A stretch of 64,000 bases of DNA from Rosettibacter firmus (GTDB taxonomy: Bacteria; Bacteroidota; Ignavibacteria; Ignavibacteriales; Melioribacteraceae). Both the position numbers and the translations under genes were made by a program. This document shows positions 4,897-49,673 of the stretch, one piece after another; the first letter of the stretch is position 1; each line of letters opens with the position of its first letter. The DNA is taken from positions 682,001-746,000 of the forward strand of contig NZ_JAYKGJ010000001.1 in NCBI RefSeq assembly GCF_036860695.1, read 5' to 3'. Under the pieces are notes generated by a model, which saw only the letters and a program-made list of their open reading frames with translations, was not told the DNA's origin and ran no database searches.

Positions 4897-5227
4897 GAAT
4901 CTTTTTTATAATTCCTTCAATCTTTTCAACATAATCTAACGTATCATCAATATAGAAATCCAGTTCTGGTACAAATCTTATCTGAATTCTACCTGCAAGT
5001 TGTGTACGAATCCAGCCTTTTAATTCATTTACTTTTTCAAGAACTTCTTTACGTTTATTTTTATCGTAAACAGAAAGATAAACTTTTGTATGTCGTAAGT
5101 CGGGACTTACTTTAATATTGGTAACAGTAATAATACTGAGTTTAGGATCTTGAATTTTATGTAGAAAAATCAAACTCAGTTCTTCTTTAATTAAGCTTGC
5201 AACTCTTTCTATTCTGTACGATGGCAT
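4865..5227 (-). CDS. rbfA: Ribosome-binding factor A
   Basis: Small KH-fold protein that binds the immature 30S subunit and helps 16S rRNA 5'-end processing, important in the cold. The 120-residue product has the family N-terminus (YRIERVASLIKEELSLIF) and the typical VSPDLRHTKVYLSV and IRFVPELDFYIDDT segments. It overlaps the infB stop by one base and truB by 32 bases, so three genes are probably translated in a coupled way. Confidence 0.96.
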   Translation of the reverse strand: MPSYRIERVASLIKEELSLIFLHKIQDPKLSIITVTNIKVSPDLRHTKVYLSVYDKNKRKEVLEKVNELKGWIRTQLAGRIQIRFVPELDFYIDDTLDYVEKIEGIIKKIHESDNKKNIE

Positions 5228-7863
5228 TATTCTAACTTTTTCTTTGTTTCAACAATTTTATAAGATTCAATAATATCGCCTACTTTTATATCATTAAAGT
5301 TTGCTATACTCATACCACACTCAAAACCTTTTTCTACTTCGCGTACATCATCTTTAAATCTTTTCAGGGATTCGAGTTGACCTTCATAAATTACGATTCC
5401 ATCGCGAATGAGTCGAATTTTATTATTTCGAATAATTTTACCATCCTGAACATAGCATCCTGCTACTGTACCAACTTTTGGTACTTTAAAGATCTGGCGT
5501 ACTTCTGCAGTACCAACCAATTCTTCTGATATAACTGGTGAAAGCATTCCTTCTAAAGCAGATTTAACAGCATTGATAGCATCATAAATAATATTGTATA
5601 ATCTAATTTCAACTTTTTCTGTTTCTGCTAATTTTCTTGCATTAGAATTTGGTCTCACATGAAAACCTATGATAATAGCACGGGATGCAGCTGCTAAAAG
5701 AACATCCCCTTCTGAAATTGCACCAACTCCTTTATGAATTACTCGTACATTAACTTCATCATTAGATAATTTCATAAGAGCATCGGATAGAGCTTCTACC
5801 GAACCATCCACATCACCTTTAACAATAATGGGTAATTCTTTAACTCCACCTCGACTAATTTGATTGGCAATTTCATCAAGAGTAATTAGTCTAACCTGAC
5901 GTTGATCCTGTTCTCTTTTAAGTTGTTGACGTTTAATACTAATTTCGCGAGCCTCTCGTTCCGATTCAACAACAATAAAAATATCACCAGCTTGTGGTGC
6001 AGCTTCAAATCCTAATACTAAAACTGGAGTTGAAGGACCAGCACTCATAACTTTATTGCCTCTTTCATCAAACATTGCACGAACTCTTCCGTAAACAATA
6101 CCTGCAATAAAGGGGTCACCAATTTTTAATGTTCCTTTTTGAACCAATACTGTTGCAGTTATACCTCTTCCTTTATCTAATTGAGCTTCGATAATTGTAC
6201 CTCGAGCTAATCTATCTGGATTTGCTTTTAATTCAAGCATTTCAGCTTCGAGAATAATTTTTTCGAGAAGCAGGTCAACATTCTTTCCTAATTTAGCAGA
6301 TATTTCAACACATTGATATTTGCCTCCCCAATCTTCAACCAGAACATTTCTTTCTGCCAATTGTTGTTTTATTTTTTCAACGTTAGCATTAGGTTTATCA
6401 ATTTTATTAATGGCAACAATAATAGGTACATTTGCAGCTTGAGCATGATTTATAGCTTCAACAGTTTGTGGCATTACAGCATCGTCTGCTGCAACGACAA
6501 GTACAACAATATCTGTTACCTTAGCACCACGTGCTCGCATAGCCGTAAATGCTTCGTGACCTGGAGTATCAAGAAATGTAATTTCTTTACCATTATCGAG
6601 TACAACTTTATAAGCACCAATATGTTGTGTTATTCCACCAGCCTCGCCTGCTACTACATTTGTATTTCTAATAAAATCCAGTAATGAAGTTTTACCATGA
6701 TCAACATGTCCCATAATTGTTACAACAGGGGGACGAGGTTTTAATTTATCTTCTGGATCAGGAATATCTGCATCAATATCTGCTTTATATTCATCCTGCA
6801 ATTCTATTTCATAACCAAAGTCGGCTGCAATAAGTGTAATTGTTTCAACATCCAATCTTTGATTTATTGAAACCATCAATCCAAGATTAATACATTTTTG
6901 TATTACTTCACTAACTGGTACTCCCATCAAATTAGCAAGTTCGCCAACTGCAATAAATTCTGTAACTTTTATTTTCTTTTGTTCAAGTTGTTTTTGTTCA
7001 AGCAATCTTTCTTGCTGTTCCTGTTTTTCTTTTCTCTTTTTCTTTCTAATTAAAGCTCGCTCACTTAATGCAGATTCATCGAGACTAAGCATTGTTCTTT
7101 TGATTGCTTCTTCTACTTCGCGTTTATCAATTTCAAGTCTTTTTATTTTTCTCTTCTTTTTAGAAACAACCTCATCTACTCCTTCTTCTCCAACCTTTCC
7201 TTTCTTTTTAGCTTTTAGAATTTTTTTCTTTTTCTTCTTTTTCTTTTTAGTTTCTTCTTCTTCAGCAACTTCCTGAGTAACTGCTTCGGGTTGTTTTGTT
7301 ACTTCTGCTTTTTCTTTCTTTTCAAGATCGATTTTACCAACTATAGTTAAACCTTTTTTCTTTGCTTCTAATTCAAGTTCGGTTTCTGTTCTGAATGTTT
7401 CAGCTTCTTCGTCGCGATTTTTTTCTTCTACTGGTTGCTGTGTTTCTGTAACAAGTGTCTCTTCGGTTTGTTGTTTGATCTCTTCGGATACTTGTACGAT
7501 TTTAGCTTCTTCTTTATCAACTTCGACGGATTTTTCTTCTACTTTAGATTCTTCTTGCTTTTCTACAGACTTATCTTCAATTATTTTTTCTTCTGGTTTA
7601 GTTTCTATAGGATGTTCGGGTTCGACTTCAATTCTTTTTTTCTGGAATTCCGATATTTTTTTATAATGTTTTTCAGCTTTTTCAATATCTTTTTTAAAAT
7701 GAGCGCGTATATCATTTTCCATTTCTTCAGTTAAAAGGGTCATATGAGATTTAACCTCATAACCTTTTTTCTGAAGAAATTCTATAATAGTATCTGTCGA
7801 AAGATTATACTCTGCTGCAAACTTGTAAATTCGTATTTTTTTTTCTTTTACTATATCTGGCAT
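5227..7863 (-). CDS. infB: Translation initiation factor IF-2
   Basis: GTPase that brings initiator tRNA to the 30S subunit and drives subunit joining. The 878-residue protein has a short N-terminal IF2_N helix domain, then a long Lys/Glu/Val-rich low-complexity stretch (about residues 70-260, including a run of nine lysines near 210). A second IF2_N-like segment precedes the GTPase domain, whose motifs are GHVDHGKTS (about 385), DTPGHE (about 431) and NKID (about 488). Domains II to IV follow. The low-complexity part produces long spurious open frames on the plus strand. It starts about 50 bases after nusA. Confidence 0.98.
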
Positions 7864-7914
7864 TTGATTACCTAATTTTTTGTATAATTCAAAAGAAGCT
7901 AAAACCTATTTATT

Positions 7915-9162
7915 TTAATCTTCTTCTTCAAATTGGTTTTCAAGAATTTGAATTATTTCTTTTGCTTTTTCTTCTCCAATACCTTCCAGTTGTTTTAATT
8001 TGTCGACTCCAGCTTTCAATACTTCAACTGCAGTTTCAAATCGATGAGAAATTAAAATATCAACAATATCACTTCCAAGTTCTTCGCGTAATTCTGGTAA
8101 TTCAATATCTTCTTCATATTCATCAAGTTGTTTTTCGAGACGAATAACTTCAATATCATAACCAGTTAATTTCATTGCAAGGCGAATATTTACTCCTCCT
8201 CTTCCAACTATCATTGAAATCTGATCACTTTCAGCAGTTACAACACATTTTTTTGCATCTTCGTCAATTTCAATTTGTTTTAGTTTAGCTGGTGCAAGGC
8301 ATCTTTGAATAAACACAACAGGATCATCAGAATAATTTATAACATCAATATTTTCATTATTCAATTCACGGACTATAGCATGAATTCTTACGCCTTTCAT
8401 ACCAACGCAAGCACCAACAGCATCGATTCTGGCGTCTTGAGATTCTACAGCCACTTTTGCTCTTTCACCTGGCTCACGAGCTATACCTTTAATTTCAATT
8501 ATGCCATCATAAATTTCTGGTATTTCAATTTCGAATAGTCTCTTCAAAAACATATTATCAGCACGAGAAACAATTATAACTGGACCATTAGGAGTTTTCT
8601 TAACTTCTTTAACAACTGCCCTGATTGTTTCCCCTTTTTTATATTTTTCATGTGGAATTTGTTCTGAGCGAGGTAGTATTAATTCATTTTTATTATGATT
8701 TATAAGTACATCATTACGTCTCACCTGATAAATATCTCCAACAACAATTTCGCCTATCATATTACGATATTCATTATAAACAATTTCTTTTTCAATCTCA
8801 CGAATTTTTTGATTCAGGTTTTGACGTGCGAGATTAATTAATCTTCTTCCAAATTGAGAAAGTTCGATTTTTTCAACATAGTCTTCACCTACTTCCAGAC
8901 CCTCTTCATTTCCTCGAGCATTTACTTCTTCTATACTTATTTGAGTACTTGGGTCTGTAACTTTTTCTACTATTGTTCTTTCAAGAAAAATTTCTATATC
9001 TCCCTTATCCATATTAACAACAACATCATATCTTGCATCTGGTCCATATTTCTTTTTAACAAGCAGACCGAATATTTCTTCGATTATTCCTGCAAGAACA
9101 TCTTTATCGACACTTTTTTCACGCACCATTTGTGCGAATGATTCAACTATTTCAAGGTTCAT
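7915..9162 (-). CDS. nusA: Transcription termination/antitermination factor NusA
   Basis: RNA polymerase-binding factor for pausing, termination and antitermination. The 415-residue protein shows the N-terminal polymerase-binding domain, an S1 domain (from about residue 135, VVGDIYQVRRNDVLI), two KH domains (GACVGMKGVRI and IVGRGGVNIRLAM) and one short C-terminal helix-hairpin-helix region with LEGIGEEKAKEII. It lies between rimP and infB, the conserved order. In E. coli NusA affects expression of its own operon, which is relevant to the leader hairpin upstream of rimP here. Confidence 0.97.
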   Translation of the reverse strand: MNLEIVESFAQMVREKSVDKDVLAGIIEEIFGLLVKKKYGPDARYDVVVNMDKGDIEIFLERTIVEKVTDPSTQISIEEVNARGNEEGLEVGEDYVEKIELSQFGRRLINLARQNLNQKIREIEKEIVYNEYRNMIGEIVVGDIYQVRRNDVLINHNKNELILPRSEQIPHEKYKKGETIRAVVKEVKKTPNGPVIIVSRADNMFLKRLFEIEIPEIYDGIIEIKGIAREPGERAKVAVESQDARIDAVGACVGMKGVRIHAIVRELNNENIDVINYSDDPVVFIQRCLAPAKLKQIEIDEDAKKCVVTAESDQISMIVGRGGVNIRLAMKLTGYDIEVIRLEKQLDEYEEDIELPELREELGSDIVDILISHRFETAVEVLKAGVDKLKQLEGIGEEKAKEIIQILENQFEEED

Positions 9163-9177
9163 TTATTTACCTCCCCA

Positions 9178-9621
9178 TCAAAAACTAATTAATACTTTTG
9201 CTTTTGTTATATCTTCAAAATTTATTTTTATTTCATTATTCTTATTCTGAAAATACAATTGGTTCCCATCAATTCGAATTAATTTGCCTGTAATTTTTTT
9301 TACTGAATCTTTATCCTTGTAGTTAACTTCAAAATTCCTGTTAATATGTTTGCCATATTGAACAAGATATTTTAATGGTCTATCTACACCAGGAGAAGAA
9401 ACATCGAGGCGATAGTTTTTAAATAAATTACTTTCATCAATTGCTTTTTCAATCAATCTACTTATTCTCATACAATCGTCAGTCGTAACAGCCCTTTCGC
9501 CGTCTATAAATATTTCAATTATCCGAAGTTTATCGTCACCTCGAATTATTGTGTCAATTAGCAGAAATCCTTCGGATGCTATTATTTCTTCAAATTTTTC
9601 GATTAATTTAAGATTTTTCAT
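9178..9621 (-). CDS. rimP: Ribosome maturation factor RimP
   Basis: Cytoplasmic factor needed for 30S subunit maturation. I take the ATG at 9621, giving 147 aa beginning MKNLKLIEKFEEIIASEG. The frame extends 16 codons further upstream, but that extension runs through the leader hairpin and does not look like RimP. Supporting motifs are IDGERAVTTDDCMRISR and the conserved LDVSSPGVDRPLK. It is the first gene of the rimP-nusA-infB operon. No good Shine-Dalgarno sequence is visible before the start. Confidence 0.94.
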   Translation of the reverse strand: MKNLKLIEKFEEIIASEGFLLIDTIIRGDDKLRIIEIFIDGERAVTTDDCMRISRLIEKAIDESNLFKNYRLDVSSPGVDRPLKYLVQYGKHINRNFEVNYKDKDSVKKITGKLIRIDGNQLYFQNKNNEIKINFEDITKAKVLISF

Positions 9622-9637
9622 TTTATACAAACAAAAA

Positions 9638-9654
9638 TCGCCCACGAGGGGCGA
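9638..9654 (-). promoter_or_regulatory. Leader hairpin upstream of rimP (terminator-like)
   Basis: On the minus strand CGCCC and GGGCG pair around a 5-base loop, extended by one T-A pair, and ATTTTTG follows. The element ends about 16 bases before the rimP ATG and lies inside the transcript predicted from the promoter at 9667-9698. It could act as an attenuator or as a binding site for a regulator; terminator-like function is inference. It is by far the most GC-rich short stretch in the neighbourhood. Confidence 0.5.
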
Positions 9655-9666
9655 AATTAGACACCA

Positions 9667-9698
9667 CAAATCTATAAATAATTGTGTGAATTAGCAAA
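9667..9698 (-). promoter_or_regulatory. Promoter of the rimP-nusA-infB operon (Bacteroidota type)
   Basis: Read on the minus strand, a TTTG (-33 element) is followed after 20 bases by TAGATTTG, an exact match to the TAnnTTTG -7 element of Bacteroidota housekeeping promoters. Transcription would start near 9660 and give a leader of about 40 bases that includes the hairpin at 9638-9654. It lies just downstream of hemW's start region in a gap with no other gene. Confidence 0.6.
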
Positions 9699-9725
9699 TT
9701 TTTGACTAATAATCCATTGATGGTT

Positions 9726-10856
9726 TTATAATAAAATTTTAATTATTTCGTCACACAATGCATAACCTTTTTTTGTTAATTTAATTTTATCTTCTTCTCT
9801 GATTATAAAACCATCAAAAATTAATTTTTCAATTTTTAATTCTCTCTCTTTTAGCCAATTATTCCCGAATTTTTCATAAAAATTACTTATACTTAAACCC
9901 TGACTTCGGAGAGATAACATTACAAACTCATCAATCATCTGTTCTTTTGTAAGAATTTCTTCTCCAATTACTGCATTTCCTTTATCGTTTATAGATTTTA
10001 TATAAAAACTTAAACTTGAATAATTCCACCATCTTTTTCCATCAACAAATGAATGAGATGAAGTGCCAAATCCCAAATAATCTTTATAACTCCAGTAGGA
10101 ATTATTATGAATAGATTCAAAACCAGGTTTTGCAAAATTTGAAACTTCATATTGATTGAATCCATTTTGATTCAAAAAGTCAATTGTATATTCATAAAGG
10201 TCTGCATCATAATCTTCATCCTGAATTTCGATTTTTCCATCGAGAACCATTTTATTTAATATTGTTCCTTTTTCCAGAATCAAGCTATAAGCTGAAATGT
10301 GAGTAATTGGTAGATTTATTGCAATTTCTAAATTTCTCTGCCAGATTTCTTTAGTTTGTTTGGGCAAATTAAATATTAAATCTATACTAATATTCTTAAA
10401 ACCATTTTCATATGCATCAAGAACTGTTTTAATGGCAGTATGTGAATTATGAATTCTTGTAAGAAATTTTAATTCTTCGTCTTTAAATGATTGAACACCA
10501 ATGCTTAATCTATTTATTCCAATCTCTTTGAAAGTTTTTAATTTATCTTTGTTTACTGTTCCTGGATTGGTTTCTAATGTAATCTCAATATCGGAGGATA
10601 AGAAAAACCTTTTTGAAATTTTTTCAATAATTGTTCTAATTAAATCTGGTTCAATCAAAGAGGGGGTTCCACCGCCAAAATAAATTGAAATTATTTTTCT
10701 ATTATCAGAATATCTATCGGCAAAAAAATCTATCTCTTTTTTTAATGCATTTAAATATTCTTCTAAATTTTTTAGAGTTATAATTGAATAAAAATCACAA
10801 TAGATACATTTATGATCGCAGAATGGTATATGAATATAAATCGAAGTATCAATCAT
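9726..10856 (-). CDS. hemW: Radical SAM haem chaperone HemW (HemN-like)
   Basis: Member of the oxygen-independent coproporphyrinogen oxidase-like family. The cluster motif PFCDHKCIYCDF (CX3CX2C) lies at the very N-terminus and is followed by YFGGGTPSLIE. At 376 aa it matches HemW rather than true HemN, which is longer and has an N-terminal extension before the cluster. HemW proteins bind haem and are thought to deliver it to respiratory proteins, which fits a genome with multihaem cytochromes. It runs toward rimP on the same strand with a gap of about 100 bases that holds the rimP promoter. Confidence 0.88.
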   Translation of the reverse strand: MIDTSIYIHIPFCDHKCIYCDFYSIITLKNLEEYLNALKKEIDFFADRYSDNRKIISIYFGGGTPSLIEPDLIRTIIEKISKRFFLSSDIEITLETNPGTVNKDKLKTFKEIGINRLSIGVQSFKDEELKFLTRIHNSHTAIKTVLDAYENGFKNISIDLIFNLPKQTKEIWQRNLEIAINLPITHISAYSLILEKGTILNKMVLDGKIEIQDEDYDADLYEYTIDFLNQNGFNQYEVSNFAKPGFESIHNNSYWSYKDYLGFGTSSHSFVDGKRWWNYSSLSFYIKSINDKGNAVIGEEILTKEQMIDEFVMLSLRSQGLSISNFYEKFGNNWLKERELKIEKLIFDGFIIREEDKIKLTKKGYALCDEIIKILL

Positions 10857-39787: not shown

Positions 39788-40450
39788 TTAGCATCCTTCC
39801 CTTTTTTTCTTAGGAACGTTTTTAAGATTACCAGCGGGAGGCTGCACTATCTTTGGTGCAGAAGGTGTTTGAACATTTTGAATTACATTAGTTGTTGTTC
39901 CACTAACAATTTGTGGTGTTCCACCAAAATGTAAACTTATTTGTTTTACTTTTTCAAAATTATTTTTCTCTTCTGCAGTTGCATTTTCTGAAAGTTTGGG
40001 ATACAGAATTTTATCTTTCCATTCATTCAATCCACCTTTTAGAATATACACATTTTTATAATTTGCACTCTTTAAAATAAACCATGCCTGTGCAGAAGTG
40101 ATATCGTCATCTCCAAACAAAAGAATTTTTTCATTTCTCATTAAATCCGAATCAAGAAGATTTTCAACTGGAATATTTACAGCACTTGGAATTGAATATT
40201 TATTAAATAATTTTTCGTTTCTTAAATCAACCAAAGTAAAATCTGATCTGCCTTCTATAATCCATTCAGCTAATTGTAAAACAGAAATTTTATCCTGATC
40301 TTTTATTGTTGATAATGCTAATTCTTTTGCATTAACTTTAATTGTATTTTTATTATTCGGATTTCCAATAAATAAAGCTATTATTCCTAAAAGGAGAGTA
40401 ATTAATGCTAATCTTTTATTCAATGATAATTTTTCGACTGGACATTTCAT
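39788..40450 (-). CDS. Membrane-anchored rhodanese-fold protein lacking the catalytic cysteine
   Basis: The 220-residue protein has one N-terminal membrane segment (about residues 12-29) and a rhodanese domain (about 56-155): FTLVDLRNEKLFNKYSIPSA and VYILKGGLNEWK are the family's strands and final loop. At the active loop, where CxxGxRS is expected, the sequence is LFGDDDITSAQAWF, with Gly113 about where the cysteine should be. Only two cysteines exist, Cys3 and the very last residue Cys220, after a Pro-rich tail ending KKKREGC. It overlaps the YeeE-type gene upstream by 4 bases and closes the island. It may bind rather than transfer sulfur; that is inference. Confidence 0.82.
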   Translation of the reverse strand: MKCPVEKLSLNKRLALITLLLGIIALFIGNPNNKNTIKVNAKELALSTIKDQDKISVLQLAEWIIEGRSDFTLVDLRNEKLFNKYSIPSAVNIPVENLLDSDLMRNEKILLFGDDDITSAQAWFILKSANYKNVYILKGGLNEWKDKILYPKLSENATAEEKNNFEKVKQISLHFGGTPQIVSGTTTNVIQNVQTPSAPKIVQPPAGNLKNVPKKKREGC

Positions 40451-41049
40451 TCTTTTTCTCTCCCCAATTTTTTAGTCATAACTTTCTCGCTCCATTCTGC
40501 TGCTGCAAAAGCACCTAAAGCCATCAGCACAACTAAAAAAACTATCATACCATGAGATAAACCAAGAAATTCTGGTAATGTAATTCTTCCCATTGGAGTA
40601 GAATTATAAAAACTTTCTATTAAAGGAAATATTTCACCAAAAACAAAAATTCCAAAAAACATTCCTGCTAAATACATCATACCATCATACCTGCCAGTAG
40701 AAGCAGAAACAACAGAAGTCCCTGGACAATATCCACCAATAACAAAACCAATTCCCAGTAATAATCCACCAATTATTTGAGGAAGAATATAAGTATCTGT
40801 TAAATAAATCAGAGATAAATCTAACCAGCCAATCCATGAAAAATAAAAAAGTCCAAGCATCGCAGTAATAATAGCTGTAAACATAACTTTAAGCACACGC
40901 ATATTGTAAAAATAAAATTGAGCTGCAAGAATTCTTGCGTTTCCAAATCCACCACGTTCTAATGCAAAGCCAAAACCAATTCCAATTATAAAAGCTACAA
41001 CTAAACTAAAATCGAAACTAAAGTAATCGAATTTATAATATGGCATCAT
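40447..41049 (-). CDS. YeeE/YedE-type sulfur transporter half (second)
   Basis: Membrane protein with about five hydrophobic segments. I prefer the ATG at 41049: it overlaps the previous stop as ATGA and lies eight bases after GGAGG, whereas the ATG at 41055 is too close to it. The family motifs are ERGGFGNARILAAQF and GGYCPGTSVVSASTGRYDG, whose cysteine is conserved in YeeE-type thiosulfate channels. E. coli YeeE is one chain with two such halves; here they are two genes, as in PmpA/PmpB pairs. The neighbours suggest import of a sulfur compound for the molybdoenzyme system or for assimilation. Confidence 0.85.
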   Translation of the reverse strand: MMPYYKFDYFSFDFSLVVAFIIGIGFGFALERGGFGNARILAAQFYFYNMRVLKVMFTAIITAMLGLFYFSWIGWLDLSLIYLTDTYILPQIIGGLLLGIGFVIGGYCPGTSVVSASTGRYDGMMYLAGMFFGIFVFGEIFPLIESFYNSTPMGRITLPEFLGLSHGMIVFLVVLMALGAFAAAEWSEKVMTKKLGREKE

Positions 41050-41627
41050 AACCATTGCCTCCTGAAAAAGTATGCAGTTAAATATCCACCAGCAAAAACA
41101 GCAAACATAAACGCCCAGCTTCCAAGATTAAGTAATGCACCACCTGTTAGGGCTTGACCACTTGTACAGCCTCTTGCAAGCTTGGCACCAAATCCCATAA
41201 TTGCTCCTCCTGTGAATGCATAAATAAGTCTCATACGATTAGAAATGTTAGGTCCTTTTTCAATTGTTCTTTTAATTCTATGTGCTAAAGTTCCAGACAA
41301 AAATCCACCCACAGCAACTCCGATAACTTCAAATACAAGCCAATCTTTCAATGGATTTGTAGTTCCATCAGTTAGATATTCCTTATAAAAATTATTTTTT
41401 GATGCATGTTCAGGAGCCACTTTTGAAACAGTGACTGCTACAACAGTAGATGCAGCACCAGAAGCTCCTAATCCACGACCCATGATAACAAAAGCTGCAA
41501 GCAGCACTAATCCCAACCCTACACCAACAAGATAAGGATTCGAATATGGTTCAGGTTGAAATACTTTTTCTTCTTTGACATTCTCTTTTGAAAATATACC
41601 TGATAACGAAGACATTTTATTCTCCAT
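41046..41627 (-). CDS. YeeE/YedE-type sulfur transporter half (first)
   Basis: The 193-residue membrane protein has segments near residues 32-50, 98-116, 133-150 and 165-187. The motif RGLGASGAAS and the later GFGAKLARGCTSGQALTGGA (Cys154) match the first half of YeeE-type transporters, where the cysteine of GCTSG lies on the sulfur path. A hydrophilic insert (about residues 70-95) faces one side of the membrane. It overlaps the partner gene by 4 bases and follows the NrfD-type gene by 5 bases, so all are one transcript. Confidence 0.86.
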   Translation of the reverse strand: MENKMSSLSGIFSKENVKEEKVFQPEPYSNPYLVGVGLGLVLLAAFVIMGRGLGASGAASTVVAVTVSKVAPEHASKNNFYKEYLTDGTTNPLKDWLVFEVIGVAVGGFLSGTLAHRIKRTIEKGPNISNRMRLIYAFTGGAIMGFGAKLARGCTSGQALTGGALLNLGSWAFMFAVFAGGYLTAYFFRRQWL

Positions 41628-41632
41628 AATTA

Positions 41633-42580
41633 TTAATTGAAATGAGCATTAAAGTAATGACTATACTGTCCAGCATAAACAATTATAAATCTGAGAATCA
41701 ATCCACCAAGAATTACAAGAATTGGAGCAACTGGAGTATGTTTAATTTTATGATTTACAGCAAGTAATTGAATTATTAATGGGATAATAATTCCTGTACC
41801 AATAACAAAAGTCCAGAATTGAGGTGCATACTCTCCACTAATTAAAAGTTTTGCAGCTGATATATGAACAGCAGATGAAGTTGACAAACCAACAAGTAAA
41901 AGCATTATCACAAAAAGTTCTATTATCAAAAATCCATTATCAGCTTTTGCAAGTAATTCACGTTCAAAAACATTTTTTGCAATCATATGAACAAAAGCAG
42001 CAGCTGTAGATAAACCAGATACTAAAAATAATATTGATAAAATCGAACTATTCCATAATGGACGAGATCCCATCGTACTCAATAAAATTCCTGTATAAAT
42101 TCCAAGAGATCCACCAAGCAACATATTTGCAATACCAATGTTTTGAATTAATCTTGGTCTTTCATTAATGAAAGTAGTAATTAAATTAATCTTCGGAAAT
42201 TTTCTTACAATAAAATCAGGTGGTCCCATTAAGAAATTTGCAATTATAACAGGATAAACAAGAATTAAAATCCATGCACCCCAGGACATTGGAGATTTAA
42301 TTCTGAAAGTAGTATACAATCTCCAGAAATAAAGTTTATGCTCTAAATCTAAAAACAACGAAAACATTCCAGCACTGAGCAGAATTAAACTTATTAATGG
42401 TAAAGTATAGCATGCACATGTAGTTTCTTTATATCTTTTACTGAATAAAAAGTAGCCCGAAATAATCATCATTCCTGCAACCATACCACCAAGAAACAAG
42501 TAAACTGGAATTTCCCATCCCCACACATGAGTGAAAGGATCAATTTGAGGATTATGTCGAGTTGTTGTTAATTCTTGCAT
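41633..42580 (-). CDS. NrfD/PsrC-type membrane subunit of a molybdoenzyme
   Basis: The 315-residue protein has about eight membrane segments and the family pattern, WGWEIPVYLFLGGMVAGMM at the N-terminus and repeated GSL/LGG turns. NrfD/PsrC proteins exchange electrons between the membrane menaquinone pool and the iron-sulfur subunit on the outside. An SD-like GAGGTAG precedes the ATG. The gene follows the ferredoxin subunit by 15 bases, the standard order of catalytic, FeS and membrane subunits. Confidence 0.92.
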   Translation of the reverse strand: MQELTTTRHNPQIDPFTHVWGWEIPVYLFLGGMVAGMMIISGYFLFSKRYKETTCACYTLPLISLILLSAGMFSLFLDLEHKLYFWRLYTTFRIKSPMSWGAWILILVYPVIIANFLMGPPDFIVRKFPKINLITTFINERPRLIQNIGIANMLLGGSLGIYTGILLSTMGSRPLWNSSILSILFLVSGLSTAAAFVHMIAKNVFERELLAKADNGFLIIELFVIMLLLVGLSTSSAVHISAAKLLISGEYAPQFWTFVIGTGIIIPLIIQLLAVNHKIKHTPVAPILVILGGLILRFIIVYAGQYSHYFNAHFN

Positions 42581-42595
42581 TGCTACCTCAATAGT

Positions 42596-43135
42596 TTATA
42601 TCAAATAAAAAATTCTTGGTGATGTTCCCGCTTCAGGCAATAAAGTATGATATTTTCGTGAAGCAAGTAATTGACTTACTTCACTATTTGGATCATCTAA
42701 ATCACCAAAATACATACAATGAGTTGGGCATACTGAAACACATGCAGGTAACTCACCTTTTTCGACTCGATGAATGCAAAAAGTACATTTATCAGCATAG
42801 CCATCGGGATGAATAAATCTTGCATCGTATGGACATGCAGCAAGACAGGCTTTGCATCCAATACACATATTATGATCCACAAGAACAACTTTACCTACAT
42901 CATGAACATGACTTGCACCTGTAGGACAGCAGGATACACATGGTGTATTATCACAATGATTGCATCTTTGTGACTGAATTTCCAGATGAACATCAGGAAA
43001 TTTCCCTTCTGTTACATATACAATCCAATCACGATTATATCCTTCTGGAACATTATTTTCTGTTTTACAAGCTACAACACAATCCATACAACCAACACAT
43101 TTTTTTGTATCGATAACCATTCCATAACGTGCCAT
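42596..43135 (-). CDS. Four-cluster ferredoxin subunit (PsrB/PhsB type)
   Basis: The 179-residue protein has four sets of cysteines for [4Fe-4S] clusters: CVGCMDCVVACK near the N-terminus, CNHCDNTPCVSCCP, CIGCKACLAACPYDA, and CTFCIHRVEKGELPACVSVC. This is the electron-transfer subunit that links the molybdopterin enzyme to the NrfD-type membrane protein. It has no signal peptide of its own and would be exported with the Tat-dependent catalytic subunit. It starts two bases after the catalytic gene's stop. Confidence 0.94.
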   Translation of the reverse strand: MARYGMVIDTKKCVGCMDCVVACKTENNVPEGYNRDWIVYVTEGKFPDVHLEIQSQRCNHCDNTPCVSCCPTGASHVHDVGKVVLVDHNMCIGCKACLAACPYDARFIHPDGYADKCTFCIHRVEKGELPACVSVCPTHCMYFGDLDDPNSEVSQLLASRKYHTLLPEAGTSPRIFYLI

Positions 43136-43137
43136 AA

Positions 43138-45336
43138 TTACACCTCAACTTCAAAAGTTACAAAATTAACATTCATACCAGTTCCTCCCATTAATGGATC
43201 TGTATTATATTTTGTTATTAACTGAGCATCGCTTGCCCCTTTTTGATAAGCTCTTTTCAACATTCTTGAATTATGACCAAATCCGTGTACCATATAAACA
43301 CAATCAGGTCGAATTCTTTCTGTTGCTTTTACTTTCACTTTATTGCTTAGAATTCCATCTTGATTTTTCAAACGAATATATTGACCAGATTTTAATCCCC
43401 ATCTTTGAGCAATATCAGAATTTATCCAGACTTCATTTTCTTCCATCATATCCATAAGAATTGGATTTGATTGTGTTCGAGAAAACGAATGAACCGGAGC
43501 TCTACCAAAAAGTAATCTATAATAACCAGCTGGTGGTTCTTCCGGTCTTCTATATTTTGGAACAGGATCGAATCCTGCTTGCAATAGTTGAAGCGAATAA
43601 AATTCTATCTTTCCAGATGGAGTTGCAAATTCTGGTTCTATCCCATCTTCAATATAAATAGGTTGTTTTGGACCGTTAATAATTCCTTCTTTTTTTAATT
43701 CTGCCAAACTTAAACCTGCTGCTTTAAGTCGATAATCAAAATATTCTTCTATATCATTCCATGGGAAATAATGTGATAGTCCAAGCTTGTCTGCTAATTT
43801 TTTTGCAATCCACCAATTTGGTTTTTGATCTGCAGGAGGTTCTACAACTGGTTGACGAATTCCAACAAAAGGTTCTTTAAATGCAGATGTATGAAGATCA
43901 TCATGTCTTTCTAAATAGACAGATTCAGGAAGTACAACATCTGCCCAGCCTGCAATCTCACTTGGTATTACATCAATAACAACAAGAAGATCTAAATTTT
44001 GTATTGCTTTTATTGTTTCTTCTTCATTTGGTAATGCATGAATTAAATTAGTAGCATAAACAAACCATCCTTTGATAGAATACGGTTTACCAGTAATTGT
44101 AGCCTCTCTAATTCCAGTTGTAATTTCTTCTGATGCGAATGGATATTTTTTATCTGGATTATCCAATTTATCTTTTGTTGGAGTTGGATAAGGTGGATAA
44201 GGATAAGGTGGTAAAGAGTAACTAACTGGAAAATAAAATCCTCCTTTTCTTCCCCAATTTCCCATTAATGCATTCAGCAATGCAATTGCACGACTTCTTT
44301 GAGTATCATCTCCATACCAGGTTGCATGTCTTCCAGGATGAATTAAAGTTGCAGGTTTATACATTGCCATAGTTCTGGCTGTAGTACGAATTAAATCTGG
44401 TTTAATTCCTGTTTCAGGATAAGCCCATTCAGGAGTATATTGAGAAATTTCAGAGACGAATTGTTCAAAACCAAATCCATATTTTTTTACATAATCTTCA
44501 TCATAAAGTTTTTCTGTAACAATCACATTCATCCATGCAAGTAAGAGTGCAATATCTGTCCCTGGTTTTATAGGTAGATAATATTTAGCTTTTGATGCTG
44601 CTACTGAAAATCTTGGATCAACTACAATTATAGTTGCATCATTTTGAACTGCAGTTGCAAATTCCTGAACCTGTGAATTATGCATGTTCTCACCAAGATG
44701 AGAACCAATCAATACAATACATTTTGAATTTTCGATATCTGTTCTCTCAGGTGAACCAATTGAATCTCCAAATGTTAATTCAAAACCTACATCTCTTGGT
44801 CCTCTACATTGAGCAAAAGAAGGAGCAGCAAAATTTATAGCACCAAATGCTTTGAGCATATGTTTAAGAAAATTACCTCCAATACCATGAGAAAAAGAAG
44901 CAATGGACTCTGCACCATAATTTTCTTTTATCTTTTTCATTTTATTTGCAATAAAATCGAGAGCTTCATCCCATGTTACTTCTTTCCAATGTTCCTGACC
45001 TCTACTTTTTGTTCTTATAAGTGGAGCTCTTAATCTATCTGGATCGAAATGAGCACCAATACCACCTGTACCACGAGGACATAATCTTCCTTTGCTGAGT
45101 GGATCTCTGGGATTCCCTTCTATTTTCCATAATTGACCATCTTTTACATAAGCTATAGCTCCACACTTCCAGAAGCATATATCACAGTAAGTAGGAATTT
45201 TTTGAATTCCTTTTGCTTTTTTATTATTAATTTCTTTTGCACCTTTTATTATGGGATTCAGTGCAGTTGATGCTGCTGCAGCTCCAACAGTGAAACCTGT
45301 GATCTTCAAGAATTTTCTTCTTGATATTGAATTCAT
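43138..45336 (-). CDS. Molybdopterin oxidoreductase, catalytic subunit (PsrA/PhsA-like)
   Basis: The 732-residue protein starts with a Tat signal, SRRKFLKITGFTVGAAAAST. An N-terminal [4Fe-4S] site uses Cys51, 54, 58 and 86 (CX2CX3CX27C). Cys177 in FAQCRGPRD is at the place of the metal-ligand cysteine of polysulfide/thiosulfate reductases. Motifs for the two pterins follow, including WADVVLPESVYLERHDDLH and the C-terminal VKVKATERIRPDCVYMVHG. The group includes reductases for polysulfide, thiosulfate, tetrathionate and arsenate, so substrate cannot be fixed. Sulfur transporters and a rhodanese fold downstream favour a sulfur compound. A GAGGT sequence precedes the start. Confidence 0.9.
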   Translation of the reverse strand: MNSISRRKFLKITGFTVGAAAASTALNPIIKGAKEINNKKAKGIQKIPTYCDICFWKCGAIAYVKDGQLWKIEGNPRDPLSKGRLCPRGTGGIGAHFDPDRLRAPLIRTKSRGQEHWKEVTWDEALDFIANKMKKIKENYGAESIASFSHGIGGNFLKHMLKAFGAINFAAPSFAQCRGPRDVGFELTFGDSIGSPERTDIENSKCIVLIGSHLGENMHNSQVQEFATAVQNDATIIVVDPRFSVAASKAKYYLPIKPGTDIALLLAWMNVIVTEKLYDEDYVKKYGFGFEQFVSEISQYTPEWAYPETGIKPDLIRTTARTMAMYKPATLIHPGRHATWYGDDTQRSRAIALLNALMGNWGRKGGFYFPVSYSLPPYPYPPYPTPTKDKLDNPDKKYPFASEEITTGIREATITGKPYSIKGWFVYATNLIHALPNEEETIKAIQNLDLLVVIDVIPSEIAGWADVVLPESVYLERHDDLHTSAFKEPFVGIRQPVVEPPADQKPNWWIAKKLADKLGLSHYFPWNDIEEYFDYRLKAAGLSLAELKKEGIINGPKQPIYIEDGIEPEFATPSGKIEFYSLQLLQAGFDPVPKYRRPEEPPAGYYRLLFGRAPVHSFSRTQSNPILMDMMEENEVWINSDIAQRWGLKSGQYIRLKNQDGILSNKVKVKATERIRPDCVYMVHGFGHNSRMLKRAYQKGASDAQLITKYNTDPLMGGTGMNVNFVTFEVEV

Positions 45337-45338
45337 TC

Positions 45339-45779
45339 TTACCTCGAAATAGACTTTATTAATTCTTTTATTTCACCACATTGATTGTACTTTTTATACA
45401 CATCACAATTACGACAATCTCTTTTTTCACATATGTTTTTCCTATGTTCATAATTCCAGCAAGGCTCACTATGATTATTATAAGCTTTACAATTTTTTCT
45501 ATCTTTTTGTGAACATTTTACAATTTCCCAGCAAGGTATTAATGAATACAAAGCTTTAATTCCATTAATACTTATCTTAAATTCATTAATTGCTTTGCGA
45601 ATACATTCAAGTCTCTCAATATCAGATTTTGAGTAAAGTCTTTGATTGGATTCTTTTTTATATGGAATAATAAGTCCCTCCCTTTCATACATTCTTAAAG
45701 TATGAATGGAAATATTTAATAACTTAGCAGCAGTACTTATTGGAAATATTGGTTCGTCGTTTTCTAATGTATTTAACAT
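45339..45779 (-). CDS. MerR-family regulator with cysteine-rich C-terminus
   Basis: The 146-residue protein has an N-terminal MerR winged helix (about residues 13-75): ISTAAKLLNISIHTLRMYER and NQRLYSKSDIERLECI. The usual long dimerisation helix is short. The C-terminal part holds eight cysteines (83, 89, 97, 107, 117, 122, 125, 134) in the pattern CWEIVKC, CKAY, CWNY, CEKRDCRNCDVY, which resembles the CW-type cysteine clusters of some bacterial signalling proteins. It may bind an iron-sulfur cluster or metal, or sense redox state or a sulfur compound; this is inference. It ends 2 bases before the molybdoenzyme gene and has a 30-bp palindrome just upstream. Confidence 0.86.
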   Translation of the reverse strand: MLNTLENDEPIFPISTAAKLLNISIHTLRMYEREGLIIPYKKESNQRLYSKSDIERLECIRKAINEFKISINGIKALYSLIPCWEIVKCSQKDRKNCKAYNNHSEPCWNYEHRKNICEKRDCRNCDVYKKYNQCGEIKELIKSISR

Positions 45780-45965: not shown

Positions 45966-48668
45966 TTAATCTGGTATTATACATTTATCTGAAAGCCTTT
46001 TTTTAATACTTTCATAATTAACTAATGCTTGCTTCATAACTTCAGAATTTTCTGCGTGACACATTAAACAAGCTCCTACTTCCAGAATCTTTTTTTGTTC
46101 TTCTAAAGTAAAAGGTCTCATGTTGTTACGAGTAGTATTATTCCCTTTTGGTTCTTGCAAAAATCCTATCCATGCATCCATTGGTAATCCATCATATTTC
46201 GACAATGGATATTCAGGAGTAAAAATCCAGTTCCCTTTTTTTATTATCTTATATTCTAATTTTCCCCTACCATATCCTAAGGCTGATGGATTTAGATGAC
46301 ATGATTTACAACTTCTTGATTCTCTTCTTATAGTATGCGAAAATGCAGGTGCATAGAGTCTCTTAAATATTATTTTATCTTTTATATTCGATTTATCTTT
46401 ATCAATCGTTAAAATCATTCCAGGAACAAAGTTATCAATTACTTTTTTATCCTTATCAACTTTTACTCCCAGAGCTGGATAATCTGCAATAAAATTTTGT
46501 GCGTGTTCAATCCATTCACCTTTCATTTCTTCATTAGATAATAAATCAAATCGAAAACTATTTTTATTAAATTCTGTGTGACATCCAGTACATTGCGGAG
46601 ACCATGAAGTATGACATGTATTACAACTTAAATTTTTATGAGCATTATCTTTAAAACAAACCGATAAAGGTTTTTTAATTTTTTCTATTTCCAGAGTTCT
46701 CTTTTTAATTAAATAAGCTTCATTATTTTCAAGAAAAGTATTTATTAATGGCTCACCCGATTTATGAACAATTAAATAATCTCTCTCATCCAGAGCAAGT
46801 TTTCTAATTTCAGCAATCTTTTTCGATTCATAATCAAATTGTCTTAATGATTTTGTTACTGGTTTATCTTTAATGTGACAATCAATACACTGTATTTTCA
46901 CCTGTTGTTCTTTATGAGAATAAACATTTCCATCTCCCATAATTTCAGAAGAGATATGACAATCAATACACAACATGCCTTTTTTATAATGAATATCTGG
47001 AATTGTCTTTACGAAAATTCGTCCATCATCTAATTGTCTATAATTTTGATTTGTTGAATCAAAACTATTCAACTCAGTTTCATGCCAGCCTTCATAGTTT
47101 GTTGATATTCTGCCAGAGCGTGAATGACATCCGAAACAATAATTATTTGAATCAGGTAATTTTATATCAGGATGAAGCTTTGATAATTTATAGTCTTTAT
47201 TAAATTTTGCAACTTTATAATTTTGTAATGAACTCTCTGCCTCTTTTGAATAATAAAGATGACAGGCATTACATCCTCCACCTCTTGAAAGTTGATTTAT
47301 ACTACCTAACTCATTTTTTTCATTTGATAGATGACATGATGCACATAAATTTCTAAGATGAGTATCAGCTGGTGAATATTTCAATTCCTGTATTTTAAAT
47401 ATTTCATCCAGAGAATTAATTTCATCAAATACAAACTTATCCACACTCACAACACCACTCATCGTGTTCATTAATGATTTATTAACTCTTTCAACAATTT
47501 GAGAATGACATTGACTTCTACCACATGTAATTTTAGCATCAGACAAATTCCCTGGTATTAAAATCATATTTGAATGAGCTTGATTTTTATTAAGCGTAAA
47601 TGGATTTCCAAGATGACAGGAAACACAACCTATTGCTTCTGGATCATGTGAAGGTGATAATCCTTTTACATTTTCATGACAACTCAAGCATCCTTCGTAT
47701 CTGCCTGAAATTAATTTTATATTATGATTTGATTGAGTAAACAAATTCTTAACATCAAATACAGTACTAAATGCGTTTTTATATGGATTGAATTGCCATG
47801 GATAACAGAATTCCCAATTTTCATTTCTAAGATAAAAGCCTATAACAGTCATTATTGTATAAAGTACAAATAACACAAACAAAAACTTTTTTACTCTCTT
47901 TGCTCTGGATTTTTTGAAATGCCATAATAAATACAAAAGTATTAGTATAACTAAAAGTATAAGTAAAAAAATTGATGGATAAATCAACCAATGTAATATC
48001 TCCTGAACACCAACTAAATACCATGGTCCTTTAACAATAGAGAAATACTTATCATGTAAATTTGGGGATAAAAGAGAAGACACAAAAAGTATTAAAGGCA
48101 AAGTGATATAAAAAGCCTTATTTGAAGGAGTTATAATTTTAGCATGCTCGATAATGAAAAAGAGTAATAATATTGTAGCAGTAGCAATGTGATGTAAATA
48201 AATCGTCTGAAAATTTTCTGATGTGCCCAGAAGAAAAAATGAAATTGATTCACCAATTAAAGGAATAGTATTAATCAACTCTGAAAATATATTTTGAGCA
48301 AAGATACTTTCTTCATCTCCTTTCAATATGAATCCGCTCAGCATCAAGAAGATCACGATTAAGATTGAGAGAATTAACCTGATCCACATTCCAGATGTTA
48401 CATTTTTTTCAGTAGATAATCTTAAATGATCCCAAAAATGAAATAATGTAAAAACCAGAAAGAATTGTGCACTCCAGTAGTGAATGCTACGAATTAATTT
48501 TGCATTCTCATTAACTAATAAAAATTTTGATATTGATTCAAAAGGTTTTGAAACATCATAAGGTAAGGCAACAAAAATTCCAGATACAACACAAATTAAA
48601 AAGGAAGCATAAGCAATTTGACCAAATGAAACATTAAAAATTTTTATGTAATTGTTATCCTTATTCAT
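45966..48668 (-). CDS. Cytochrome b fused to a twelve-haem cytochrome c domain
   Basis: The 900-residue protein starts as a cytochrome b: His63/His77 and His160/His175 have the 14- and 15-residue spacing of b6-type haem ligands. Membrane segments lie near 13-36, 62-83, 97-116, 155-178, 186-203, 225-250 and 262-281. Seven segments with the N-terminus inside put the rest outside. The quinol-site PEWY motif is GPWY (214-217). Eleven CxxCH sites start at 327, 348, 442, 466, 511, 567, 594, 682, 693, 787 and 867, plus one CX4CH at 382-388. With the overlapping Rieske gene it should oxidise menaquinol and pass electrons to periplasmic haems. I know no named family with this exact layout. Confidence 0.9.
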
Positions 48669-49050
48669 AAACTACTAATTGTTGCTTTGATTTATCAAAA
48701 TTAATTTTCAGTTCCACTAAATCTTTTCTCGCAGGTCCTTCAATTACTTTACCATCTTCATTAAATTTTGAACCATGACATTTACAAACAAATTTACCTG
48801 ATTCAATGTTAGTAATTTTACATCCAAGATGAGTACATTTTGAAGAAAATACTTTTATAGTTTCATTTCTTTTAATAATTATGATATCATCATAAAAATT
48901 AACCCCATCATTTATAATTGAAGGTAAGATTCTACTTTTTTTACCAATCATATTTCTTTGTTTTTCAATAGAAAGGTATGTTATCAAGAAGATTGGGAGT
49001 AAAAGAATTTTATAAAAATATTTTAGGAATTTTTTTCTGGTTAATTTCAC
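48661..49050 (-). CDS. Rieske iron-sulfur protein
   Basis: The 129-residue protein has an N-terminal membrane anchor (about residues 13-27, after basic [11 protein letters not shown], weakly Tat-like) and a Rieske domain. Cluster ligands are Cys72 and His74 in CTHLGC and Cys89 and His92 in CKCHGSKF, with Cys77 and Cys91 placed for the usual disulfide. It overlaps the cytochrome b fusion gene by 8 bases, so the two are almost certainly partners in one quinol-oxidising complex. It is small for a bc-type Rieske protein. Confidence 0.92.
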
Positions 49051-49052
49051 AA

Positions 49053-49673
49053 TCAGAACAATTTTTCTTTTACATATTCGTAATCTTCGGGAGTATTCAT
49101 ATTGAAAAACAAATCGTGAAAATAAAATTTTTCTTTTTCTACATCTACAATTTCAGCTCCAGCTCTTTCAATAAAATTTCTCATGCTAAAATAGAATGGC
49201 TTTTTCTCTTCATATATCTTTTTAGCAACATAATTAGCACTCAAAATCTTTTCTGCAAGTGGTAATATTTCTTTAGAATAAATTCCAATTGAATGATGAA
49301 CAACTCCTTCAGCCTTTGGAACAATTATAAACTCATCGGTTTTTACATTAAGCAGGTGATTAATTAAACTGGTTGTAATAAAAGGTGTATCGCAAGACAT
49401 TATAAAAACTCTATCGGATTCAACCTGTGAAAGCGATGAATGAACACCAGACAAAGGTCCTAAGTTAGGATAGATATCTTTAATCTTATCTAAAGATAAA
49501 AACTCAAAATCTTCGGGATTATTTGTACTTATAACAATTTTATCAAATATAGATTTTATTCTTTCATAAATTATTTCAATCAATGTTTTGTCATCAAATT
49601 TGAGCAAAGCTTTCTTCGAGCCCATTCGCTCACTTTGTCCACCAGATAAAATTACACCTACAATTGAATACAT
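49053..49673 (-). CDS. mobA: Molybdenum cofactor guanylyltransferase MobA
   Basis: Attaches GMP to molybdopterin to give the bis-MGD form used by the DMSO-reductase family. The 206-residue protein has the nucleotide site [19 protein letters not shown] near the N-terminus, [10 protein letters not shown] and IMSCDTPFI, and NMNTPEDYE near the end. It leads the minus-strand run that continues through the Rieske and cytochrome b genes (2-base gap) toward the molybdoenzyme itself, so cofactor supply and enzyme are probably expressed together. Confidence 0.92.

Follow-up and report, generated by a model that had tools for sequence, protein, structure and literature searches.

The question raised by this locus is whether one polypeptide really joins a cytochrome b core of the b6 type to a chain of twelve c-type haems and, if it does, where such a protein would deliver its electrons. 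The window, by which we mean the whole 64-kb stretch of DNA analysed, carries the reading frame on the minus strand at exactly the coordinates originally predicted. Its features, numbered by position in the window, are the following.

45966..48668, minus strand: cytochrome b (b6 + subunit IV-like)–dodecahaem cytochrome c fusion, a 900-aa ORF with full-length relatives
47799..48668, minus strand: seven-helix cytochrome b core, residues 1-290 (ExtP-like 10-175, ExtQ-like 210-290)
48480..48482, minus strand: His63, presumed p-side haem b ligand, pairs with His160 (sequence, conservation)
48438..48440, minus strand: His77, presumed n-side haem b ligand, pairs with His175 (sequence, conservation)
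48189..48191, minus strand: His160, haem b ligand (sequence, conservation)
48144..48146, minus strand: His175, haem b ligand (sequence, conservation)
48018..48029, minus strand: GPWY (residues 214-217), equivalent of the PEWY quinol-site motif (conservation)
46056..47690, minus strand: ExtM-like region, residues 327-871, with 12 haem-c motifs (motif count, NCBIfam, conservation)
47505..47525, minus strand: third haem site, an unusual CxxxxCH (CGRSQCH) (motif, conservation)
46416..46418, minus strand: Met751; Desulfobacterota homologues have Cys or Sec (UGA) at this site (alignment)

The membrane core is as the original prediction described it, with two haem b ligand pairs at b6 spacing, seven membrane segments, an outside C-terminus and a quinol-site motif without the usual acidic residue. 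His63 and His77 lie 14 residues apart and His160 and His175 15 apart, which matches cytochrome b6, and all four ligands are invariant in seven split cytochromes b and in 18 of the 19 fused relatives compared, the exception being that of genome G611. The assignment of the His63 pair to the p side and the His77 pair to the n side is one that we presume from bc1 and b6f. Residues 1-290 match Pfam Cytochrome_B (PF00033, E 5e-13), and the best solved-structure matches of the core are cytochrome b6 chains (1e-8). Seven helices are predicted from hydropathy and from the helix pattern of a structure model that is itself poor (pLDDT 38, pTM 0.25, 12-row alignment), and the C-terminus is predicted to be periplasmic because the F-G loop is strongly basic. 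GPWY occupies the position expected of a p-side PEWY-type motif with the Glu missing. Since GPW(Y/F) is conserved across the fused relatives and the split cytochromes b, with the single decayed exception of G611, it is, as far as these alignments reach, a family trait and no local oddity; we found no mention of the motif in the literature searched. In b6f a Cys where helix A begins binds haem cn covalently; the N-terminal segment of the relatives has no conserved Cys of this kind.

The count of twelve haem-c sites was also borne out: residues 327-871 contain 11 CxxCH motifs and one CxxxxCH, far above what shuffled versions of the protein give (mean 0.03, maximum 2 CxxCH), and none of the 12 motifs varies among the fused, lone and Desulfobacterota homologues. 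The first c haem lies about 40 residues past the last membrane helix. Among solved structures, a sequence search with the c arm gave no match, and the ExtM family was found in none of 14 control genomes. Two non-haem cysteines, Cys671 and Cys896, do not vary within the fused/lone clade but are hardly ever present in Desulfobacterota; they perhaps form a disulfide. A separate family of dodecahaem cytochromes of about 800 residues, which is distantly related to the ExtM-like arm and also has a PGCQ site, occurs in Campylobacterota and Bacteroidales (L013-L023).

A frame or assembly error that merges two genes was named at the outset as one way in which the single polypeptide could prove false, and separately encoded b and c parts in homologues as another. 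The parts are indeed separate genes in Desulfobacterota and in Geobacter (PMC5877670), as a merging error might lead one to expect, and the fusion is real nonetheless. Full-length single frames are present in seven near-relative genomes, the source genome included, and in at least 15 of the 391 genomes of the class, in several families (six counting G031), with a further full-length fusion in a Bacteroidales MAG (L097). The full-length relatives are 44-66% identical, and a segment F-RGE-W is conserved at the b/c junction of the fused proteins. Because full-length single frames recur in independent genomes, an assembly or frame error is excluded for all practical purposes. The fusion unites parts that were already known, and it stays genuine despite the separate homologues. 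In the literature searched, coverage of which was partial, we came across no account of a twelve-haem chain fused to a b6-type core.

The closest known parts are those of the Geobacter extHIJKLMNOPQS cluster, in which the 12-haem protein is ExtM, the Rieske protein ExtO and the cytochrome b ExtP (PMC5877670). NCBIfam assigns residues 321-892 of the fusion to ExtM, 10-175 to ExtP and 210-290 to ExtQ. All of these matches fall below the curated equivalog cut-offs (266 of 800 bits for ExtM, 58 of 290 for ExtP), so the relation is one of homology and not of equivalog membership. Both systems have a Rieske protein and homologous b6-type cytochrome b, subunit IV-like and 12-haem cytochrome c parts; however, in Geobacter these are separate genes, and the fused locus is without the ExtI porin, ExtKL, ExtN and ExtS and has a linkage to PsrABC and YedE that belongs to it and not to the ext cluster. 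Compared with cytochrome bc1 and b6f, the b ligands, the Rieske protein and the position of the Qp motif are alike, whereas cytochrome c1 or f is replaced by a covalent 12-haem arm and PEWY by GPWY.

Multihaem domains were said to be usually separate from cytochrome b. This holds for Desulfobacterota and Geobacter (PMC5877670), but other fusions are known, such as CbcL, and one of them is in the source genome itself. CbcL joins a multihaem c part to a different type of cytochrome b (PMC6295460). CbcL, MtrH and MtoC resemble the fused protein in being single-polypeptide quinol oxidases with multihaem c and dihaem b membrane domains, and differ from it in having a six-helix b domain of the HydC/FdnI type (PF01292), an N-terminal c part and no Rieske protein (PMC6295460); the b domain of the fused protein is N-terminal and belongs to PF00033. 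In Kuenenia, b6-like cytochromes are paired with hexa- or octahaem c, and one cytochrome b is fused to a dihaem c (PMC12954380). The Kuenenia Rieske/cytochrome b complexes thus also use multihaem c in place of cytochrome f, and Kuste3096-3097 is a fusion of cytochrome b with a c domain; in contrast to our protein, that fused c is dihaem, the hexa- and octahaem c are separate subunits, NAD(P) oxidoreductase subunits are present, and there is a haem cN, for which no conserved Cys was seen in the fused family (PMC12954380).

Matches occur in 56 of the 297 Desulfobacterota genomes sampled, and none of these matches was confirmed as a fusion. One 881-aa frame that looked like one (L089) was rejected as a spurious overlapping frame in GC-rich DNA. 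Four loci (L109, L110, L113 and L114) have the gene order Rieske, cytochrome b (seven helices in one chain) and dodecahaem c, with the cytochrome b and dodecahaem genes overlapping by ATGA in L109 and L113. Order and domain content are those of our locus, and the quinol-site motif, GPWF, is likewise of the GPW(Y/F) type, but there are three genes instead of two, and the dodecahaem protein has Sec (UGA) at the Met751 site. The split cytochrome b stops just past helix G (IGWR, VGFSR, VGELR), where the fused protein runs on with F-RGE-W. Since Desulfobacterota carry the same three parts as consecutive genes, the fusion appears to unite collinear Rieske, cytochrome b and dodecahaem c genes, and loss of a stop codon between them would be its simplest origin. 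Two other Desulfobacterota loci (L098, L099) have a gene for a PhsA/QrcB-like molybdoprotein and, directly behind it, genes for a Rieske protein and a cytochrome b, with PsrB and NrfD absent; here too a Rieske/b module is paired with a periplasmic molybdoenzyme.

The b half has also been lost. In the tree of the dodecahaem part, lone forms without a b core are scattered among fused forms, and the well-supported branches force at least three changes. As the junction is common to the fused forms, there was probably one fusion followed by repeated losses of the b half, with part of the tree backbone unresolved. A Rieske gene lies directly upstream in 12 of the 12 loci examined with an intact b core and in none of the 11 without, and in close relatives the two are absent together while the dodecahaem protein is kept. 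G611 (L104, ORF 7693-10281) has a decaying fusion that keeps its 12 c haems but has lost the Rieske gene, GPWY and both n-side ligands of haem b. The joint presence and loss of the Rieske and b parts, G611 included, argues that they behave as one functional unit.

Met751 lies at a position that varies in the wider family. Twelve Desulfobacterota ExtM-like genes (L077, L078, L079, L081, L082, L084, L086, L089, L109, L110, L113, L114) have an in-frame UGA at PG-U-QD (LVPG-UGA-QD), and others have Cys. A SECIS-like hairpin with a G-bearing loop stands about 20 nt past the UGA in most of the UGA genes and is mostly missing from the Cys genes. Nearly all genomes with UGA genes have a tRNA-Sec that scores far above cut-off, but so do genomes with Cys versions, so its presence shows selenocysteine capacity only. 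These ExtM-like cytochromes are apparently selenoproteins, in which Sec may sit at a haem. ExtM is not named in a 2026 review whose selenoproteins include ExtKL and an octahaem cytochrome (PMC13188914).

For the acceptor, the genes around the fusion have to be considered.

49053..49673, minus strand: MobA-like molybdopterin guanylyltransferase, a conserved upstream neighbour
48661..49050, minus strand: Rieske [2Fe-2S] protein, GTG start, overlapping the start of the cytochrome; ExtO equivalent by position
45339..45779, minus strand: MerR-family regulator
43138..45336, minus strand: PsrA/PhsA-type molybdoenzyme with a twin-arginine leader; closest solved structure 2vpw (743 bits)
42596..43135, minus strand: PsrB-type Fe-S subunit
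41633..42580, minus strand: PsrC/NrfD membrane subunit
40447..41627, minus strand: two half-size YeeE/YedE (Sulf_transp) sulfur-compound transporters
39788..40450, minus strand: membrane-anchored rhodanese

The Rieske partner that had been proposed is present, with CTHLGC and CxCHGS cluster motifs. Many relatives conserve the order MobA, (Rieske, b)-dodecahaem c, MerR, PsrA, PsrB, NrfD, YedE, YedE, rhodanese. The next three genes after MerR have the features of PsrABC/PhsABC, namely a Tat-exported Mo subunit with a Mo-ligand Cys, a subunit with four [4Fe-4S] clusters and an NrfD membrane subunit. PsrA aligns over its full length with 2vpw, Cys falling on Cys at the Mo-ligand position, and scores 533 bits against the 694 of the PhsA equivalog cut-off. 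The 2vpw entry is the Thermus thermophilus polysulfide reductase, although it was deposited as a thiosulfate reductase. Across 391 genomes of the class, PsrA accompanies the dodecahaem protein in 28 of 31 genomes and occurs in 41 of the 360 without it (p 1e-20, a statistic that ignores kinship). In G646 a lone dodecahaem gene stands in a row with an octahaem cytochrome of the tetrathionate-reductase family, a PhsC-like cytochrome b and YedE genes (L105, 174-6228). The conserved Psr neighbourhood, the co-occurrence among genomes and the tetrathionate-reductase-family neighbour in L105 favour a sulfur-linked periplasmic role, which is our best guess for the fused complex.

Our reading is that the protein is probably an electrogenic menaquinol:dodecahaem-cytochrome-c oxidoreductase, fused from collinear genes, whose periplasmic acceptor is tied to the neighbouring sulfur system. 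The fused architecture, the ligands, the Rieske linkage and the conserved gene neighbourhood can be read from the DNA directly; from them we infer Q-cycle turnover, menaquinol as donor and the direction of flow, and the gene neighbourhood suggests the acceptor. The conserved b ligands together with the Rieske linkage support quinol oxidation by a Q cycle. Menaquinol would be oxidised at the GPWY-lined Qp site. One electron would go by way of the Rieske protein, a separate polypeptide, to the first c haem, which would replace cytochrome f/c1, and the other would reach a second quinone site across haem bp (H63/H160) and haem bn (H77/H175). Electrons would then run along the 12-haem arm to the periplasmic acceptor, where the chemistry may be redox of a sulfur compound or sulfur oxyanion, for example tetrathionate. 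Polysulfide has too low a potential to be the acceptor of a menaquinol Q cycle. On published potentials, a menaquinol-fed Qcr can electrogenically drive tetrathionate reduction, as the Q cycle needs an acceptor well above -75 mV and tetrathionate (+198 mV) suffices (PMC6195509). The source genome has a separate alternative complex III and haem-copper oxidase operon, and therefore the fused complex would be an additional one and not the main aerobic complex. Against our reading count two observations: PsrABC can do without the dodecahaem protein, PsrA being present in 41 genomes that lack it, and the dodecahaem protein, which persists in lone form without any b core, must by this distribution work with another partner too.

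The same neighbourhood could also be read in the opposite direction. PsrABC running in reverse would oxidise sulfide to polysulfide and reduce menaquinone, and the fusion would re-oxidise the menaquinol toward a high-potential acceptor with the dodecahaem arm as periplasmic hub. Such a scheme agrees with the co-location of the fusion with PsrABC, YedE and rhodanese, with the strong co-occurrence of the arm and PsrA, and with the need of a bc-type complex for an acceptor above menaquinol. However, the NrfD quinone site would feed the same pool without a linked complex, and lone dodecahaem loci carry PsrABC with no bc core; we consider sulfide oxidation possible but doubtful. A different proposal makes the arm itself a catalytic reductase of sulfur (or chalcogen) oxyanions and the fusion a self-contained quinol:acceptor reductase. 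His/Cys haems are typical of thiosulfate and tetrathionate enzymes, one site of the arm is Cys or Sec in homologues, and the neighbour in G646 is of the tetrathionate-reductase family, but the Met found at that site in the source clade suggests an electron-transfer haem, which leaves catalysis by the arm rather unlikely. Less likely again is the fuller version, in which the arm would be a sulfur-compound reductase with Met, Cys or selenocysteine at a haem site across the family, and the polypeptide with its Rieske protein a complete electrogenic quinol:sulfur-compound enzyme.

The original prediction saw in the fusion a wire to the periplasm and possibly to an extracellular acceptor. The first part stands, in that a multihaem periplasmic arm is predicted, while an extracellular acceptor finds no support at the locus, where the neighbourhood points to periplasmic sulfur-compound metabolism. 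In principle, electrons could cross the outer membrane to a metal oxide, an electrode or a partner cell, which is what has been proposed for the conduits of Geobacter; the homologous ext cluster includes a porin and is more strongly expressed with Fe(III) (PMC5877670), and multihaem clusters exist elsewhere in the source genome. Yet no other CxxCH-bearing ORF lies within the window, and the cluster is conserved without a multihaem conduit. The separate locus L117 (contig C3 of the source genome) has a CbcL-type gene (4938-7382), whose product carries 16 CxxCH ahead of a cytochrome b561 domain, and next to it genes for a barrel-like protein and for proteins with 4, 14, 8 and 13 haems; this locus is a candidate extracellular conduit and a better one than the fusion. 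Because the genome has this CbcL-type locus, an extracellular role for the fused protein is less likely, and we regard it as improbable.

The fusion puts a probable Q-cycle core in covalent linkage with a long chain of haems, and it matters because this arrangement matches the proposal that multihaem cytochromes were early Rieske acceptors (Dibrova 2013, as cited in PMC5317091). The ExtM family, although widely conserved, is poorly understood, and PsrABC, YedE and rhodanese offer it a partner system. Since close relatives naturally have one protein in fused, split and b-less form, what the bc core contributes to anaerobic respiration in the periplasm can be put to the test.
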